From NCBI GenBank assembly GCA_030621075.1, contig JAUXII010000033.1, forward strand, positions 1-7,539: a DNA stretch of 7,539 bases, written 5' to 3'. The DNA is from Lentimicrobiaceae bacterium. Its GTDB lineage: Bacteria > Bacteroidota > Bacteroidia > Bacteroidales > JAGONC01. A program made the translations under genes and the position numbers. Positions 1-7,241 of the stretch are shown here, one piece after another (position 1 is the stretch's first letter; each line of letters begins with the position of its first letter). The notes under the pieces were generated by a model that saw nothing but the letters and a program-made list of their open reading frames with translations, ran no database searches and was not told the DNA's origin.

Positions 1-933
1 CATCATAACCATAGTAAAAATGGAGGATATGAATGTGGCAAAAACCAGGATAGTAGTCAGCTCAGCATCGCAACCATACCTTTTCGCAAAAACTGCCGAT
101 AGTGCCGCTGTGGGCATGGCAGATTCCAGTACAACAATTTGACGCCACAATTCAGGAAAGTCCAAAATATTTGCCTGGTAAGAAGAAAGAAGCGGTTGAA
201 TAAATAATTTAATAATACATGCCAAAAGAACGATAGGAATAGCTTTTCTCATGTCCTTAAAATGCATCATAATACCTATGGTTAGTGTTACAAGCAGTGT
301 GTTGGCCGTGCTGACAATTCCCAGGGCCCTGTAAAAACCAGCCACAATAACATTATCCATGGGTAATTTAATAAAAGAGGCAAGTATTCCTGCTATCAAC
401 GAGAAAAATATAGGTGAACGAAAAAACTTTAGTGCTTCGGCCATTTTTTCCTTTGAACTGGCCTGGTGGGTGCCGAATTGAATAGCTATCAAAACACCAA
501 AAGTAAAAATCACAGTTGCTACCCCCAGTTCGCTCACAATAGCAGCATCCGATAATGCTTCCGTATTGTGAAAATATATTTCTTTTACCACCGCATAACC
601 CAAAAAACCTGAACTGGTAAACGTTGAAGCAAGGATAAGTGCTCCTTTCCGGGGCCTCGAAAGTTTCAACAACGAGCCAACACCCCATGCCAGCAATGCA
701 CACACCAGTTGTGAAACGATCATTACCGCAGCCAGCAGTAATTTACTCGTATCAAAGTCACTGGTTGATAAAGCATGAAAAATCAGGGCCGGCAAAGTGT
801 ATTGTGTGATCATCCTGGCAAATAATCCGCCGTCTTCTTCTTTCAGCACGCCTAATTTTCTGAAGCCCATGCCACCCAAAATCAGAATAACTATTATGCT
901 GATTGATTGTATCGCTGCCTGATCAAAATTCAT
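1..933 (-). CDS. AEC-family (auxin efflux carrier-like) membrane transporter, partial at 3' end
   Basis: The reverse strand reads as one open frame of 311 codons from the ATG at 933 to the left edge, with no stop reached. The protein is strongly hydrophobic with about 8-10 membrane segments, beginning with a segment in residues 8-22 (SISIIVILILGG). Later segments include one with TSSGFLGYAVV and a helix carrying ESAMPTAALSAVFA, which resembles the conserved helix of the AEC/Mem_trans family. AEC proteins usually have 300-320 residues, so probably only a few C-terminal residues are missing. Known members are secondary carriers of organic anions or auxin-like compounds in the cytoplasmic membrane; the substrate here cannot be predicted. 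It is divergent from the selenocysteine cluster and probably functionally unrelated. The chosen start places the first membrane helix right after a short N-terminus; no Shine-Dalgarno is seen, as is usual in this phylum. Confidence 0.88.
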   Translation of the reverse strand, partial: MNFDQAAIQSISIIVILILGGMGFRKLGVLKEEDGGLFARMITQYTLPALIFHALSTSDFDTSKLLLAAVMIVSQLVCALLAWGVGSLLKLSRPRKGALILASTFTSSGFLGYAVVKEIYFHNTEALSDAAIVSELGVATVIFTFGVLIAIQFGTHQASSKEKMAEALKFFRSPIFFSLIAGILASFIKLPMDNVIVAGFYRALGIVSTANTLLVTLTIGIMMHFKDMRKAIPIVLLACIIKLFIQPLLSSYQANILDFPELWRQIVVLESAMPTAALSAVFAKRYGCDAELTTILVFATFISSIFTMVMM

Positions 934-1176: not shown

Positions 1177-2973
1177 ATGAGGAAACTACTGATCTTATTG
1201 GTGGTGGTTTTGCTTTTTAAGCCTCCACTAGTAGCCCAAACACCCGTCTGGGAGGAAAATTTTCTGGAAACGCCTCCAGGGTGGGCTCTTGATGACAACT
1301 GGAGCCTTACCACCGGAAGACTGGTTTTTGACTGGACACCGGTGATACTAAATTATGACCTGTCGGCAATTTCACCTGTTATTTCATTGCCGGAAAACGT
1401 TGAGGAATTAATAATATCCCAATATCTCTTAATGTATATGTGGAGTGTTACAACTGAACAGTGTGAGATTTCAATTATTGTTGAAGAAGAAGAGAATGTT
1501 GTTTGGACTTATGAATGTATACATGGAGATTGGGGATCGCCTGGTGGGAGTGATATCTTATTCTCACTGTCTGATTATGGCGGGCAAGACATTCAAATAA
1601 AATTCAGAACATGGGGCCCCACCACAGATGCATGGTATAATTGGGATGTTTACAACCTGGCAATAATGGCTTACCTTAATAATGATCTGGCTGCTAAGCA
1701 AGTATCTGGCCCAAACAACATCGATATTGGTCAGCCCGGAAATTGGGAGGTAAAGGTGAAAAATTTAGGACAATTGCCCCAATCTGATTTTACCGTTAAA
1801 CTTTTCAGTCATAAATCAGGTGAAGAAATCGGAAGCGTGAATTCGTCCGAAACGCTGAACCCGGGAGAATCTGCTGATTTTAATTTTAACTGGACATCTG
1901 ACGAACCTCACAACACATGCCTGTATGGCGTAGTTCTTCTTGAAGGAGATGAATTTGAAAACAATAATTATTCGAAAAGTTATTTTGTAAGGATCGAACC
2001 TGATCTTGAATATAACATTCTGGTTTGGAATAATGACAATGGTAATTCAACAGTCTATAATATCGAAACCGGGGAATATGAAGAGTGTCACATAGGGCTG
2101 ATAAGTTCACTCAGTAAAGCCGGCATTTCATATAACATGGTATCGTATCTCCCAAATGACCTGTCGCTGTATGATATTGTATTAAGCACTATGGGATGCT
2201 ACTGTTTAAGCTGAGGCCTTACCCCTCCTGGCTCTGTAAATGCAACAGAACAGGCAAAGCTCATAAATTACCTCGAACAGGGTGGTAATTTATACATTGA
2301 AAGTGTTAACCTTGGATTAAACCTAACTGGTACAGAATTAATAGACTATCTTGGAATTAATTTTTTAAATGATGGTGGTGAATATGAAGTAGATGAGTTA
2401 ATCGGAAATGTAGAAAATTTTATGGCTAATGTGAATTATTTGTATGCCGGAGGAAATGACCCTCACTATAGTGTGGATAAATTATCGGCTAATGATGCTG
2501 ACATTTTGTATTGTTCCACATTGGGAACAGGCAGGGTGTTTTCCAAAACCGGGGATAATTATAAAGTTGTATCTTCTTCCACGGTATTGGGAGCTATGAA
2601 CAATGGAAACACGTTAAATATTAAACCTTATTATTTAAGTGAGATCATTAACTATTTCCTGGATGTGCTGTATGTTTCAGTTGAAGAATACACCGTACGA
2701 TCAATTTTGAGCCATAATTACCCAAATCCGTTTAATGATATTACCAATATTGAATTTACAACTTTAGAATCAGGAAAAGTACATGTGGAGATCTTTGACC
2801 TGAAGGGTCAAATGGTGAAAAAATTAATTGATAAACAACTTTCGCCGGGTACCTATTCAACTACATGGAACGGAACCAATGAAAATGGCGATTTGGTTAA
2901 TAACGGATTCTATTTTTATACGTTGACCGTTGGTGCTGTTACACTATCTGAAAAAATGATTCTGCTCAGATAG
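1177..2973 (+). CDS. Secreted T9SS selenoprotein with adhesin-like, CARDB-like and GATase-like domains (Sec at residue 346, TGA 2212-2214)
   Basis: This is one frame of 598 residues if the TGA at 2212-2214 is read as selenocysteine; it ends at TAG 2971-2973. Residues 1-20 are a signal peptide (MRKLLILLVVVLL..., cleavage likely VA|QTP). Residues about 22-165 resemble choice-of-anchor J/cleaved-adhesin jelly-roll domains. Residues about 167-275 look like a CARDB-type Ig domain. Residues about 278-495 form an alpha/beta domain resembling the glutamine-amidotransferase/ThuA-like fold (YDIVLSTMG strand, then helix and LEQGGNLYIES strand). Sec346 sits right after the YDIVLSTMG strand in CYCLSU, with Cys341 and Cys343. 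Residues about 505-598 are a T9SS type A sorting domain (YPNPFN at 515-520, IFDLKGQMV, NGFYFYTL, final KMILLR). The 69 codons after the TGA are open and continue the fold without a new start. It is therefore predicted to be exported by Sec, then T9SS, to the cell surface. The catalytic role is unknown. It is first in the cluster and its stop overlaps selC. The alternative is a nonsense-mutated pseudogene. Confidence 0.85.
2212..2214 (+). other. Recoded UGA: selenocysteine codon
   Basis: The in-frame TGA lies in the context CYCLS-TGA-GLTPP. Selenocysteine rather than termination is supported by five points: the same frame stays open for another 252 sense codons, those codons encode the rest of a recognisable fold plus an intact C-terminal sorting domain, a Cys lies three residues before (CxxU), a hairpin follows, and tRNA-Sec, selA and selB lie immediately downstream. 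TGA terminates selA (4502-4504) and selB (6454-6456), so general TGA reassignment is excluded. Confidence 0.85.
2227..2254 (+). promoter_or_regulatory. Candidate bacterial SECIS hairpin after the Sec codon
   Basis: Inside the reading frame, CCTG (2227-2230) pairs with CAGG (2251-2254) and TCTGT (2233-2237) pairs with ACAGA (2245-2249). An internal loop of GC (2231-2232) opposite A (2250) separates the two helices, and the apical loop is AAATGCA (2238-2244). The stem starts 12 nt after the UGA and the apical loop lies 23 nt after it, within the spacing known for bacterial SECIS elements, which SelB binds to deliver Sec-tRNA. One departure is that bacterial SECIS loops usually have a G in the first two loop positions. 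Here that G (2236) is in the loop only if the top two pairs open. The structure was read by eye with no folding energy calculated. Confidence 0.65.
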
Positions 2974-3063
2974 AGAGGACGGATCTGGTGTTCCATCTGG
3001 TCTTCAAAACCAGAAGCAGACGGATAAAACCGGCTGTGGCAGGTTCGATTCCTGCCCTCTCTG
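2972..3063 (+). tRNA. selC: tRNA-Sec, anticodon UCA
   Basis: The acceptor stem is AGAGAGG (2972-2978) with CCTCTCT (3056-3062). The D arm is GGATC (2981-2985)/GTTCC (2990-2994) with loop TGGT and one U·U mismatch. The anticodon stem CTGGT (2997-3001)/ACCAG (3009-3013) encloses loop CTTCAAA with anticodon TCA at 3004-3006, nearly the same anticodon arm as E. coli selC. A long variable arm follows, with GCAG (3016-3019)/CTGT (3034-3037) and CGG (3021-3023)/CCG (3030-3032). The T arm is GCAGG (3039-3043), TTCGATT, CCTGC (3051-3055). It delivers Sec at UGA after charging with serine and conversion by SelA. G3063 would be discriminator G73. The next bases are CAA, so the CCA end must be added by enzyme. 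The acceptor has 7 Watson-Crick pairs; the 8 typical of bacterial tRNA-Sec require a terminal U2971·G3063 wobble. The 5' end overlaps the preceding stop codon. Confidence 0.95.
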
Positions 3064-3085
3064 CAATTACATCAAATCCGCCTCT

Positions 3086-4504
3086 ATGAAACAAAAAACA
3101 GACGACTATAAAAATCTTCCCGGGGTTGATAACCTTCTAAACACTCCCGAAATTAAAGCTATGGTTGTGGAACACGGTTCCGGGTTGGTTAAATATGCCA
3201 TTAACCAGGTCCTTGGATTTCATAGAAAACAAATTGCCGCAAAAGGTGTTGCCTCTCCCCTGACAGCAATTATTGAACAAATCAAACTTGAAATAAATCC
3301 ATTAAAAGAAAAAAACCTGCGCCCGGTAATCAATGCCACCGGGGTTATCATTCATACTAACCTGGGGCGTGCACCTTTCGGAAAAGAGACCCTTGAGGAC
3401 GTTTTGCAAACCCTATCCGGTTATAATAACCTGGAGTTTGATCTTGTTAATGCCACCAGGGGGACAAGGTACTCCCACATCTCTGAGTTACTCAAATATT
3501 TAACCGGCGCCGAGGCTGTTTTAATTGTAAACAATAATGCTGCAGCCGTTATGCTTTCACTAAGAACATTTGCAAAAAACAGAGAGGTTGTTGTCTCAAG
3601 AGGTGAACTTATCGAAATTGGGGGTTCCTTTCGCCTGCCTGAGATTTTAGAAGCTTCTGATTGTATAATGAAAGAAGTTGGAACCACCAATAAAACAAAC
3701 GAACATGATTATCAAAATGCCATTAATGAGCATACAGCAATATTGCTGAAAGTCCATAAATCAAATTATGTAATTAAAGGATTTACCCACGAAGTAAAAC
3801 TATCAGCCCTTGTTAATATCGGCAAGAAAAATGATGTCCCGGTAATCTATGATATGGGCTCGGGTTTATTAAAAAAGGCATCTGTTGAATTCTTACATGA
3901 TGAACCGGATGTAAAACAAACACTGGCAACCGGAGTTGACCTGGTTTGTTTCAGTGGGGACAAACTACTTGGCGGGCCACAGGCAGGAATCATTGCAGGT
4001 AAAAAAGAGATGATTGCCCGCTTAAAAAAGGAACCAATGCTTCGCGCGTTAAGGGTGGGCAAAACAACATTGGCACTGCTCGAATCAGCTTGCTTGAATT
4101 ATTTAGATGAAGATCAGCTTCTTAAAAAAAACCGGGTTTTTCGTATGCTCAATAAAACACCGGGGGAGCTTAAGGAAAAAGCAATGCTGCTACAAAAGGA
4201 ACTTAAAAAACGTAACATTGAGTCAACAGTAGTTACAAGCAAAGGACATTGCGGTGGCGGGGCCTTACCTGAAAAAGAAATCGATACCTGGGCGGTCTTG
4301 ATTGAAAAAAAAGATGTAACAGGAAAAAAGAAATCTGAATTCTCTGAAAAAATGTTTCATGCCCTGCTGAATCATGACCGTCCTGTGCTGGGAATACTGA
4401 AAAAGGGAATGCTCTATTTTGATCTGCTCACCATCACATCCAGTGAGATTCCGGATGTGGCGAATACCATACATGATGTTTATAAAAAAACAACCTCGTT
4501 ATGA
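3086..4504 (+). CDS. selA: L-seryl-tRNA(Sec) selenium transferase (selenocysteine synthase)
   Basis: This is a full-length SelA of 472 residues (E. coli SelA has 463). SelA is a cytoplasmic PLP enzyme, a decameric ring in studied bacteria, that converts seryl-tRNA(Sec) to selenocysteinyl-tRNA(Sec) using selenophosphate. The N-terminal tRNA-binding region carries LPGVDNLLNTPEI (residues 11-23). The hallmark INATGVIIHTNLGRAPF lies at residues 82-98. SRGELIEIGGSFRLPEI and KEVGTTNKT follow in the PLP-binding core. The PLP lysine is expected at Lys293 in SGDKLLGGPQAG. No key motif appears missing. The start at 3086 lies about 20 nt after the tRNA-Sec gene, and the N-terminus is the expected length. 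There is no room for a terminator between, so it is probably co-transcribed with selC. The stop overlaps the selB start by four bases (ATGA), which suggests translational coupling. The required selenophosphate source, SelD, is not in this window. Confidence 0.97.
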   Translation: MKQKTDDYKNLPGVDNLLNTPEIKAMVVEHGSGLVKYAINQVLGFHRKQIAAKGVASPLTAIIEQIKLEINPLKEKNLRPVINATGVIIHTNLGRAPFGKETLEDVLQTLSGYNNLEFDLVNATRGTRYSHISELLKYLTGAEAVLIVNNNAAAVMLSLRTFAKNREVVVSRGELIEIGGSFRLPEILEASDCIMKEVGTTNKTNEHDYQNAINEHTAILLKVHKSNYVIKGFTHEVKLSALVNIGKKNDVPVIYDMGSGLLKKASVEFLHDEPDVKQTLATGVDLVCFSGDKLLGGPQAGIIAGKKEMIARLKKEPMLRALRVGKTTLALLESACLNYLDEDQLLKKNRVFRMLNKTPGELKEKAMLLQKELKKRNIESTVVTSKGHCGGGALPEKEIDTWAVLIEKKDVTGKKKSEFSEKMFHALLNHDRPVLGILKKGMLYFDLLTITSSEIPDVANTIHDVYKKTTSL

Positions 4505-6456
4505 AGCACCTGATCATGGGGACTGCCGGCCATGTTGATCATGGCAAAACCGCTTTGATCAAGGCTCTTACAGGAATTGACTGCGATACCCATAAACAAG
4601 AAAAGGAAAGAGGAATCACCATTAACCTCGGGTTTTCTCACCTGGATCTTCCTTCAGGAACATCGATCGGGATAATTGATGTTCCTGGCCATAAAAATTT
4701 GGTTAAAACAATGGTTGCCGGGGCTTTTGGAATTGATTTTGTTCTCCTTGTTATCGCTGCCGACAGCGGAATCATGCCACAAACCATTGAGCATCTCAAT
4801 ATCATTGAAATGCTGGGAGTAAAAAAGGGCATTATTGCATTAACCAAAATTGATCTTGTTGATGAAGAAACCCTGGAACTGGCCGAACTTGAAATTATTG
4901 AATACCTGGAAGGTACTTCTCTGGAAAATGCTCCGATTGTTAGCGTCTCCGCGGTAACCGGTCAGGGGTTGGGCGAATTAATTGAACATATCACTTCTAT
5001 TATTCCTGAAATTCCTGAAAAAGAAAAAGGAGATTTCTTCAGAATGTATATCGACAGAATTTTTAACATCACAGGGATTGGATATGTTGTTACCGGGTCG
5101 GTAATGAATGGCGAAGCAGAAACAGGGCAGGAGTTATTCTTACTCCCCGGAACCAGGAAAAAAACGAAAATAAAAAGTATTGAACGACATGGCGAACAAG
5201 TCAAAAAAATCTTTTGTGGCGACAGGGCTGCGATAAATTTATACGGGCTTAAAATCGATGATTTTAAACGGGGGATGGTATTGTCTGACATACATATTAA
5301 CGAAACCAGGGTTGTCGATGCTCTATTATCTTTATTCGATATTTCTGCTCAACTGGGAATGTGGTCAACTGTTATTTTTCACTCGGGAACCATTGAATGC
5401 ATGGCTAAAATTCATCTTCTTGACAAAAGAGATTTAAAACCCAAAAACAAAGCTATTGTACAAATACATCTTGACAAACCCGCCATTCTACAAAAAAAAG
5501 ATAAATTCATTATTAGAAATACATCAAATGACCTGACTTTAGGAGGGGGTGTCATTTTTGATACTTCTCCACTTCATCATAAAAGAAGGACTCCCAAACT
5601 TATTGAGAGCCTGAATGAGGTTATTACAGCGACATTATACAGCCTTTCTCTTTTTGAGATGGCAAAAAACGAACTAAAAAGAAAAATGAAACCGCTTTTG
5701 TCTGATGATCTGGCAAAAAAAATTAATGCTGATGAAAAAGAAATAATCCGTGAATTTAAGGAAAATAGAGGTAACGGCGTTCAACTATATTATATTGATG
5801 GAAAGTATATTTTTATTTATGCCCAAACTGACAAAGAAAATTATGATAAAATCATAGACTATTTGACACAATGGCATCAAAAAAATCCCTTGCTGGAAAA
5901 AGGATTCGATGTTAATGAATTTGCGGGAAAGATGGGGTATTCTTCCGATAATACAGGGAAACGATATTTAAAAGGGTTGTTACAAAGAATGAATAAAGAC
6001 AAAGTGATTGAGCGAACTGAAAGTACCTGGAGGTTAATGGGCCATTCGGTTAAACCCGACCCAAAAACCCTAAAACAACTTAGTTGGTTAGAAGGGGAAT
6101 TAAAAAATTACCAAATGCAGAAACCCGTCATGGCCGAAATAGAATCATCGGCCCAATCAAACAAGATAACGAAAGACCGCCTAAAGATGCTATTAACCTT
6201 TCTGGCCAAAACCAACAAGGTATATTCCCATAATAATGACTATATTCATTCGTCTATTGTTGATAAATGCAGAAAAACACTACTTCATGAATTAGAAAAC
6301 AAAGAGCAGGGTATTAATGAAAAAGAATTCCGCTTGCTCATTAACGGAACAAAAAAAATATGCCGGTTGTTATTGGATATTTATGAAAAAGAAAATATAG
6401 TTGTTAAAAAATCATTTTTTATTCACATAACAGAGAAAGGAAAAAATTTGCTATGA
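4501..6456 (+). CDS. selB: Selenocysteine-specific translation elongation factor
   Basis: This is a full-length SelB of 651 residues (E. coli SelB has 614). SelB is an EF-Tu-like GTPase that carries Sec-tRNA(Sec) to the ribosome and binds the mRNA SECIS hairpin. The GTPase motifs are intact: G1 GHVDHGKT (residues 10-17), G2 RGIT (37-40), G3 DVPGHKNL (60-67), G4 TKID (115-118) and a G5-like VSA (149-151). Beta-barrel domains II and III follow at about 170-360, including FNITGIGYVVTGSV and the FIIRNTSNDLTLGGGVIFD segment typical of SelB. The last roughly 270 residues are rich in Lys and Glu and match the C-terminal winged-helix array that recognises SECIS RNA. Its specificity should fit the hairpin at 2227-2254. 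The ATG overlaps the selA stop, and its own TGA overlaps the next ATG, so it sits mid-operon. Confidence 0.97.
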   Translation: MKHLIMGTAGHVDHGKTALIKALTGIDCDTHKQEKERGITINLGFSHLDLPSGTSIGIIDVPGHKNLVKTMVAGAFGIDFVLLVIAADSGIMPQTIEHLNIIEMLGVKKGIIALTKIDLVDEETLELAELEIIEYLEGTSLENAPIVSVSAVTGQGLGELIEHITSIIPEIPEKEKGDFFRMYIDRIFNITGIGYVVTGSVMNGEAETGQELFLLPGTRKKTKIKSIERHGEQVKKIFCGDRAAINLYGLKIDDFKRGMVLSDIHINETRVVDALLSLFDISAQLGMWSTVIFHSGTIECMAKIHLLDKRDLKPKNKAIVQIHLDKPAILQKKDKFIIRNTSNDLTLGGGVIFDTSPLHHKRRTPKLIESLNEVITATLYSLSLFEMAKNELKRKMKPLLSDDLAKKINADEKEIIREFKENRGNGVQLYYIDGKYIFIYAQTDKENYDKIIDYLTQWHQKNPLLEKGFDVNEFAGKMGYSSDNTGKRYLKGLLQRMNKDKVIERTESTWRLMGHSVKPDPKTLKQLSWLEGELKNYQMQKPVMAEIESSAQSNKITKDRLKMLLTFLAKTNKVYSHNNDYIHSSIVDKCRKTLLHELENKEQGINEKEFRLLINGTKKICRLLLDIYEKENIVVKKSFFIHITEKGKNLL

Positions 6457-7241
6457 AAAAAAGAATTTTACTCGCAACAATGACCCTTTTATTAACCAGT
6501 GCTATCCACGCACAAACCCCATTAACCGAGGCGGTTGATTTTTCAAAACCCGATCTTAATGGAAACATGATCCATCTTTTTGATATTCTCGACAGCGGGC
6601 AATATGTTGTAATTGATTTCTTCTTTGTTGATTGCATACCTTGTCAGGCGGTTTCACCCTTAATAAACCAGTCGTACCGCGATTTTGGATGCAATGAGCA
6701 TGATGTCTTTTATATGTCAGTTGATGACGGCGACACCACTGAAGATTGCGTAGAATATGACGAAACCTATGGTGTGGAGTTTCCAACCATCAGTGGTATT
6801 CAGGGAGGGGGAACGAAAATTGCCCAAAATTATAAGATACAATCATACCCAACGGTTATTTTAATAGCGCCAAATCGTGAAATCATCGAACAGCATATCC
6901 TTCCAATTGAAAGTGTTGAAGATATCAATGCTCCTGTTCTGGAGGCAGGGTGTAATTTTGCCGAATGTTCAAGCGGAATTTGGGGAAATGAATTAGCAAC
7001 TATTAATATCTACCCGAACCCTTCAAACGGGCAGTTTCAGATTAAACTTGATCAGGTTAGAGATGTAAACGTCAGGGTTCTTAATTTGCTGGGGAATGTG
7101 CTAATAAATGAAGATATCAGGGTTGACCAACAATCATTTATTTATGACTTAAACCTAACAACCCTGCCCGAAGGAATATACCTTGTATCGATCAGGCATG
7201 ATGATCAATATATCAGTAAGCGGATAGCTATTGTGCGATAA
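6453..7241 (+). CDS. Secreted thioredoxin-fold (TlpA/redoxin-like) protein with T9SS sorting domain
   Basis: This is a 262-residue protein. Residues 1-20 are a signal peptide (MKKRILLATMTLLL..., cleavage likely HA|QTP). Residues about 24-165 form a thioredoxin-like domain: YVVIDFFFVDCIPCQAVSPL gives the redox pair Cys61-x-x-Cys64, and SYPT at 131-134 supplies the cis-proline next to the active site. Extra cysteines are at 80, 99, 167 and 172. Residues about 182-262 are a T9SS type A sorting domain (IYPNPSNGQF, VRVLNLLGNV, LPEGIYLVSI, basic end KRIAIVR). It is predicted to be exported and attached to or released from the cell surface, with a thiol-disulfide oxidoreductase role. Its ATG overlaps the selB stop (ATGA), so it belongs to the Sec operon. 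Its signal cleavage region (A|QTP) and sorting domain type match those of the selenoprotein at the other end, which suggests a shared location. The partnership is inferred. Confidence 0.9.
   Translation: MKKRILLATMTLLLTSAIHAQTPLTEAVDFSKPDLNGNMIHLFDILDSGQYVVIDFFFVDCIPCQAVSPLINQSYRDFGCNEHDVFYMSVDDGDTTEDCVEYDETYGVEFPTISGIQGGGTKIAQNYKIQSYPTVILIAPNREIIEQHILPIESVEDINAPVLEAGCNFAECSSGIWGNELATINIYPNPSNGQFQIKLDQVRDVNVRVLNLLGNVLINEDIRVDQQSFIYDLNLTTLPEGIYLVSIRHDDQYISKRIAIVR

Follow-up and report, generated by a model that had tools for sequence, protein, structure and literature searches.

Class I glutamine amidotransferase enzymes carry their nucleophile Cys at the usual elbow place of the catalytic triad, and in the CTP synthase C-terminal region-related selenoprotein family (NF004836) the Sec of a GxUxG motif replaces this residue. 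TonB-dependent receptors, for their part, sit in the outer membrane. The available parts of PMC13188914 and PMC12013277 present NF004836 as a class I glutamine amidotransferase-like selenoprotein, and the available part of PMC13188914 also contains a predicted CxxU selenoprotein, the FCYXU motif-type TonB-dependent receptor (NF049945). This receptor is reported from Desulfosarcina sp. BuS5. Two other groups invite comparison, namely the C25 (gingipain-like) peptidases secreted by the type IX secretion system (T9SS) and the ThuA-like/GATase1-like proteins of known structure (3soz, 2gk3, 3rht, 4jqs).

Here, we describe a gene in a 7,539-nucleotide stretch of DNA from a Lentimicrobiaceae bacterium (contig JAUXII010000033.1), referred to in its full length as the window, whose predicted product differs from each of these. 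It showed no match to the NF004836 model, and its putative Sec does not lie in GxUxG but in a C-x-x-U motif on a loop that follows the third strand in an alpha/beta domain, within a multidomain protein with a T9SS tail. The NF049945 model did not match either. The C25 peptidases share with the window protein a relative of the alpha/beta domain and the T9SS tail, but their domain lacks the CxxU loop, and a Pfam search detected no peptidase domain in the window protein. Identity between the ThuA-like/GATase1-like structures and the domain containing the UGA (hereafter the Sec domain) is 13-16%, and this common fold shows no function. The family is not named in a 2026 catalogue of 119 selenoprotein families (PMC13188914, Table 1). 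The literature searched, including the available parts of PMC13188914, PMC12013277, PMC5330540 and PMC9312934, contains no such selenoprotein; a groundwater-MAG study or Haft and Tolstoy 2025 might mention one. As far as this literature reaches, the protein represents a new selenoprotein family, and its T9SS address and CxxU setting are new as well.

We consider it highly probable that positions 1177-2973 encode one protein of 598 residues, in which UGA 346 is very likely read as Sec, C343-x-x-U346 is a likely redox site and export to the surface via T9SS is predicted. The only in-frame stop within this frame is the TGA of codon 346, and the frame ends with a TAG (2971-2973). Given the base composition of the window, the 252 stop-free codons 3' of the TGA would be expected by chance with a probability of about 4e-8. 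This bears out a sequence-only reading of the same DNA, which had proposed a single 598-codon frame broken only by this TGA.

The same reading had placed a complete T9SS sorting domain behind the TGA, and this domain was recovered by PF18962 (Por_Secre_tail; E 4e-9, 37.1 bits with a cut-off of 27, profile positions 2-74 of 75) and TIGR04183 (34.8 bits, cut-off 23). The region in front of the TGA had been called adhesin-like; domains are indeed present there, and structure comparison refines them to a MAM-like jelly roll followed by a CARDB domain. The proposed continuation of an alpha/beta domain past the TGA agrees with the AlphaFold2 models, which gave a mean pLDDT of 86.9 for the whole protein and 95.3 (pTM 0.92) for residues 276-502 alone. 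These residues are predicted to form one domain with a class I glutamine amidotransferase/ThuA-like fold.

Table 1 Features of the window. Residue numbers refer to the 598-residue read-through protein.
Feature	Position	Strand	Basis or remark
Membrane transport protein, auxin-efflux type	1-933	-	PF03547; also beside the gene in L001
Selenoprotein gene, 598 residues, read through one UGA	1177-2973	+	Frame, relatives, codon at the aligned site
Likely signal peptide, residues 1-21	1177-1239	+	Judged by eye; helix 2-13 in the AlphaFold2 model
MAM-like jelly-roll domain, residues 22-165	1240-1671	+	Structure comparison
CARDB Ig-like domain, residues 164-276	1666-2004	+	Structure comparison
Class I glutamine amidotransferase/ThuA-like alpha/beta domain spanning the UGA, residues 276-502	2002-2682	+	Predicted structure
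CxxU loop, residues 343-352 (C-L-S-U-G-L-T-P-P-G)	2203-2232	+	Missing where relatives have neither Sec nor Cys
In-frame UGA, codon 346, predicted selenocysteine	2212-2214	+	TGA 76/78, Cys codon 2/78
Candidate SECIS hairpin: two 5-bp arms, one bulged base, 7-nt loop	2227-2254	+	Does not fit the published SECIS rule for bacteria
T9SS sorting domain at the C-terminus, residues 515-595	2719-2961	+	PF18962, TIGR04183
tRNA-Sec (selC), start overlapping the TAG stop	2971-3064	+	ARAGORN 2972-3064; Rfam 2971-3063
selA, selenocysteine synthase, TGA stop	3086-4504	+	PF03841 E 1.4e-132
selB, Sec-specific elongation factor, TGA stop	4501-6456	+	PF00009, PF25461, PF03144
AhpC/TSA thioredoxin-like protein (C-I-P-C), own T9SS sorting domain	6453-7241	+	PF00578 E 6.4e-11, PF18962 E 5.3e-13

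To assess how the UGA is kept among relatives, the aligned codon was read at the DNA level in 78 family members, comprising the window, 37 loci from a genome scan and 40 further Cloacimonadota copies. Besides 76 TGA codons, only two Cys codons (TGC) were present, with no TAA, no TAG and no other sense codon. The genome scan was based on two peptide patterns, neither of which includes the aligned codon, and yielded TGA in 35/37 loci and TGC in the remaining two (L029 and L036). When 124 Cloacimonadota genomes were searched with a profile, 52 matches over the site reached 170 bits or more, a cut chosen after the list was seen; all 52 sites were read in DNA, 12 of them also belonging to the 37 loci, and again TGA (50) was found together with TGC in L029 and L036 only. 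Below 125 bits, and outside these 52, all 14 matches that cover the site and were read lack the loop, while two low-scoring matches (L137 and L139) begin 3' of the site. In the 35 TGA loci of the genome scan, the residues after the UGA read, as a rule, G-x-T-P-P-G-x-V...Q..L..YL..GG.LYIE. Homologues with TGA or Cys at position 346 had been named beforehand as the test of the family, and unrelated sense codons at this position as evidence against it. A sequencing error at the TGA was rejected, as the site is conserved and the closest relative (L001, 93% identity over residues 1-345) has the same TGA. These alignments make it very likely that Sec is inserted at the UGA of codon 346.

In protein databases the family appears mainly in truncated form. 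The read-through protein was compared with 5.8 billion proteins, and 74 matches were obtained (7993 candidates scored), of which 51 are clusters of 328-361 residues with 39-90% identity to the query. All but one of these stop at the UGA, three residues past the same Cys; the exception, P0017, ends in ...FASCG and lacks the CxxU context at the protein level. For most of the remaining 23 matches, the alignment spans just 12-19% of the query and lies in T9SS-tailed proteins. As the sequence-only reading had anticipated, gene callers thus cut the gene at the TGA, leaving downstream orphans such as P0053 and P0081-P0084. Both observations would also be expected if the UGA were a true stop that ends a 345-residue protein, followed by a separate or dead gene. 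We regard this explanation as very improbable, since neither TAA nor TAG occurs at the site in any of the 78 members, the Cys forms read straight through, the codons downstream of the UGA evolve under purifying selection (see below), and a stop here would cut the alpha/beta domain after residue 70 of 227.

Five protein clusters represent the Cys form, with the motif C-x-G-C; two of them correspond to the L029 and L036 loci, P0076 being 100% identical to L036. A tree of 85 domain sequences was computed after removal of three partial sequences (L007, L097, L098) and 12 duplicates of genomes already included. In this tree the five Cys rows sit among Sec rows (fork of 9 rows, support 86/85), and therefore the Cys form looks derived from the Sec form, with moderate support. 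The 23 rows with Bacteroidota or Chlorobiota titles, including the window, form one group (100/100). The UGA form was present in 44 of the 124 sampled Cloacimonadota genomes. A sample of 395 Bacteroidota genomes contained a single match with TGA, which was G010's own, and the family therefore appears to be rare in Bacteroidota. In two loci, L003 (354-4083) and L004 (8072-11800), the selenoprotein gene is duplicated in tandem, and both copies contain an in-frame TGA.

The coding constraint on both sides of the UGA was estimated from dN/dS values. Upstream of the UGA these were 0.13-0.21; downstream they were 0.28 for the window against L001, 0.23 against L002, and 0.09, 0.06 and 0.16 for three other pairs. 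For the closest pair (window and L001), the downstream value is double the upstream one (0.28 vs 0.14) and reaches 0.39 for residues 347-500. By this measure, the codons downstream of the UGA are under purifying selection, and the decay after the TGA that the sequence-only reading had listed as contrary evidence was not seen. A pseudogene was likewise rejected on the basis of the conserved site and purifying selection.

The genes following the selenoprotein gene in the window encode the machinery for Sec insertion. The tRNA-Sec scored 60.9 bits with Rfam (cut-off 47). Its start overlaps the TAG that closes the selenoprotein gene, and an overlap of two bases is likewise present in L001. Among the 37 loci, tRNA-Sec directly follows the gene in 17, with a gap of 43-206 bases in the 16 other than L001 and on the opposite strand in L018. 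A selA gene is nearby in 17/37 loci and selB in 18/37, a weak match in L032 being left out; 3' of selB, seven loci encode a TusA/DsrE-type protein and SelD. The AhpC/TSA gene keeps its position in L001 and L005. Together with the conserved TGA/Cys site, this linkage supports the earlier suggestion that the gene is the cognate selenoprotein of the sel cluster and that its homologues are linked to sel genes.

On the genome level, SelB exceeded the curated cut-off in 30 of the 37 genomes and was partial in three more; the L012 contig contains its first 40 residues, and no SelB was found in G003, G007 and G021. In Cloacimonadota, SelB over the cut-off was detected in 36/44 genomes with the UGA form vs 20/80 without it (Fisher p 1.3e-9). 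The eight misses among the 44 comprise three genomes that hold part of SelB and five in which none was found. SelD was over the cut-off in 27/29 relatives' genomes. Eight genomes (G026, G028, G030, G031, G033, G034, G035 and G037; six Cloacimonadota, one Zixiibacteriota and one titled 'bacterium') encode a SelD with one in-frame TGA, and therefore SelD may be a selenoprotein there too. A search for formate dehydrogenase (TIGR01591) in 18 Bacteroidota-type genomes gave 20 matches in 12 of them, one over the cut-off and none with TGA.

The operon itself speaks to the possibility that UGA is a sense codon throughout the genome, as in a Trp or Gly code. The frame would be open under any code in which UGA is sense, but both selA and selB end in TGA, and UGA is therefore still a stop in the window genome. 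Six family members (L006, L009, L010, L017, L020 and L021) use TGA as their own stop codon behind the sorting domain, and the presence of tRNA-Sec, SelA and SelB also contradicts a reassigned codon, which we consider hardly credible.

A candidate SECIS hairpin begins 12 bases 3' of the UGA, with the loop AAAUGCA in the window. We compared the 51 bases 3' of the site with synonymous-codon shuffles and observed a mean z of -1.22, with 36/38 values negative (p 1.8e-11; two Cys forms among the 38). A second set showed the same tendency (mean z -0.49, 32/40 negative, p 1.9e-4), and eight control stretches had mean z values of -0.44 to +0.16, with p-values of 0.22-0.83 except for one of 0.026. For the window itself, the hairpin is weak (z -0.31). 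The Cys forms L029 (10193) and L036 (588) have a stable stretch 3' of the site (z -2.2 and -2.7), which is perhaps a SECIS relic.

In an alignment of 24 rows (L018 plus the 23 of Bacteroidota/Chlorobiota type), 86.7% of the stem cells are paired, compared to 18-45% when the stem is slid, while column shuffles also reach 85.4%; two-sided changes occur in 3/10 pairs. RNAalifold returned no such stem from these rows. According to the available part of PMC13188914, the published bacterial SECIS model calls for a G within the first two positions of the loop, 16-37 bases from the UGA. With our own implementation of this rule (unbulged stem of at least 5 bp, energy not used), 47/52 rows from Cloacimonadota and other lineages fit (20.2 expected), but 0/24 of the Bacteroidota-type rows (2.6 expected). 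The best SelB match to TIGR00475 was examined as well. Among the 17 Bacteroidota-type genomes with a full frame, it stops at position 349-420 of 581 in 15 and at 494 and 564 in the other two (G022 and G023, respectively), whereas it ends at 574-579 in 10/11 genomes of other types. The window SelB gave no winged-helix match over the cut-off. The Bacteroidota-type hairpin and SelB may have diverged together, while G023, which combines a long SelB match with the odd hairpin, argues against a strict link between the two.

The Sec domain has no family in Pfam, and no NCBIfam model (June 2026) covered residues 277-500 at E values up to 0.1; the same was true for five relatives. Searching the PDB sequences with a profile produced no credible relative (best E 0.05). 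The full-length Foldseek matches listed had GH2-type glycosidases on top at a TM of ~0.2 and were set aside. The folds matched are not named as oxidoreductases. According to the model, the third strand of the domain is followed by the loop that carries the C343/U346 pair. In 45 domain sequences, C343 and C/U346 are two of just five invariant columns, and no other Cys column is invariant; the family sequence after the fourth strand is Y-x-E, and D287 and E375 are nearly invariant. The short CxxU loop is missing in all 29 inspected relatives without Sec.

The relatives of this kind that could be typed are accessory domains of secreted peptidases, mostly of the C25 (gingipain-like) type. In G010, four of five non-Sec paralogs of the domain occur in T9SS-tailed C25 peptidases and the fifth in a subtilase. 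C25 gingipain-like genes with T9SS tails are located directly 5' of the selenoprotein gene in L018 (2158-5727) and L005 (1-4074), and the upstream peptidase in L018 carries a loop-less relative of the Sec domain. It may be speculated from these paralogs, and from the short distances in L005 (108 bases) and L018 (74 bases), that the protein serves secreted C25 cysteine peptidases by keeping their catalytic Cys reduced or by maturing them. Such a neighbour was found in only 2/37 loci, counting the neighbour ORFs that were typed after being picked by size and clustering, and the window has no C25 gene upstream on its strand, which makes this role quite unlikely.

We infer a redox role for C343-x-x-U346. 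In the mechanism we propose, U346 would be the attacking nucleophile and C343 the resolving thiol, acting at the cell surface. As U346 reduces an extracellular substrate, a selenenylsulfide between it and C343 would be made and opened again; disulfides, peroxides and oxidised secreted proteins are conceivable substrates. Recharging could be provided by a secreted thioredoxin-like partner, for example the AhpC/TSA protein encoded at 6453-7241. Genes for T9SS-tailed CxxC thioredoxin-like proteins are located at most 4 kb away in 7/38 loci, a figure that comes without a background rate. These are of the AhpC/TSA type in the window, L001 and L005 and of the Omp28 type (C-V-S-C) in L007, L008, L012 and L015, where Pfam was run on L007 alone.

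CxxC-like pairs can also bind metals, and the same surface selenoprotein might use its CxxU to bind a metal or metalloid or to sense, without redox turnover. The nearly invariant acidic residues D287 and E375 would fit such a role, as would the response-regulator-like genes directly upstream in three Cloacimonadota loci. In these loci (L024, L027 and L028), kinase-like genes were also noted by eye, as were the response-regulator-like ones, directly 5' of the Sec gene. According to the available part of PMC13188914, many uncharacterised selenoproteins carry UxxC or CxxU, and most of these likely have redox functions, which speaks against binding or sensing; we judge this alternative to be unlikely and favour the redox site.

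We predict that T9SS carries the window protein to the cell surface. The T9SS sortase PorU was over the cut-off in 28/37 relatives' genomes, including all 23 with Bacteroidota or Chlorobiota titles. The sorting signal is encoded 3' of the UGA, and therefore a product stopped at residue 345 is predicted to stay inside the cell. With the signal in this position, presumably only the selenium-containing product would reach the surface.

These observations can be joined into a wider reading, which we put forward tentatively and hold somewhat more likely to fail than to stand. The family would then consist of widespread surface-displayed selenoproteins, in which an accessory domain of gingipain-like peptidases gained the CxxU loop. 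Selenium supply would gate the display, because the export signal lies 3' of the UGA and only the Sec-loaded protein would be exported. The Bacteroidota copy would be the first gene of a sel operon, and its SECIS would belong to a class that the published model does not cover and that is read by a SelB with a co-diverged C-terminus.

With this family, for which the comparative support is strong, the prokaryotic selenoproteome is extended to an unusual address, type IX secretion, and to a fold that is unusual for CxxU motifs. The family is frequent in Cloacimonadota, yet it is split in two by gene callers. It gives a number of sel operons in Bacteroidota a use, their SECIS/SelB pair may lie outside the current model, and the family offers a natural test of selenium-dependent protein export.
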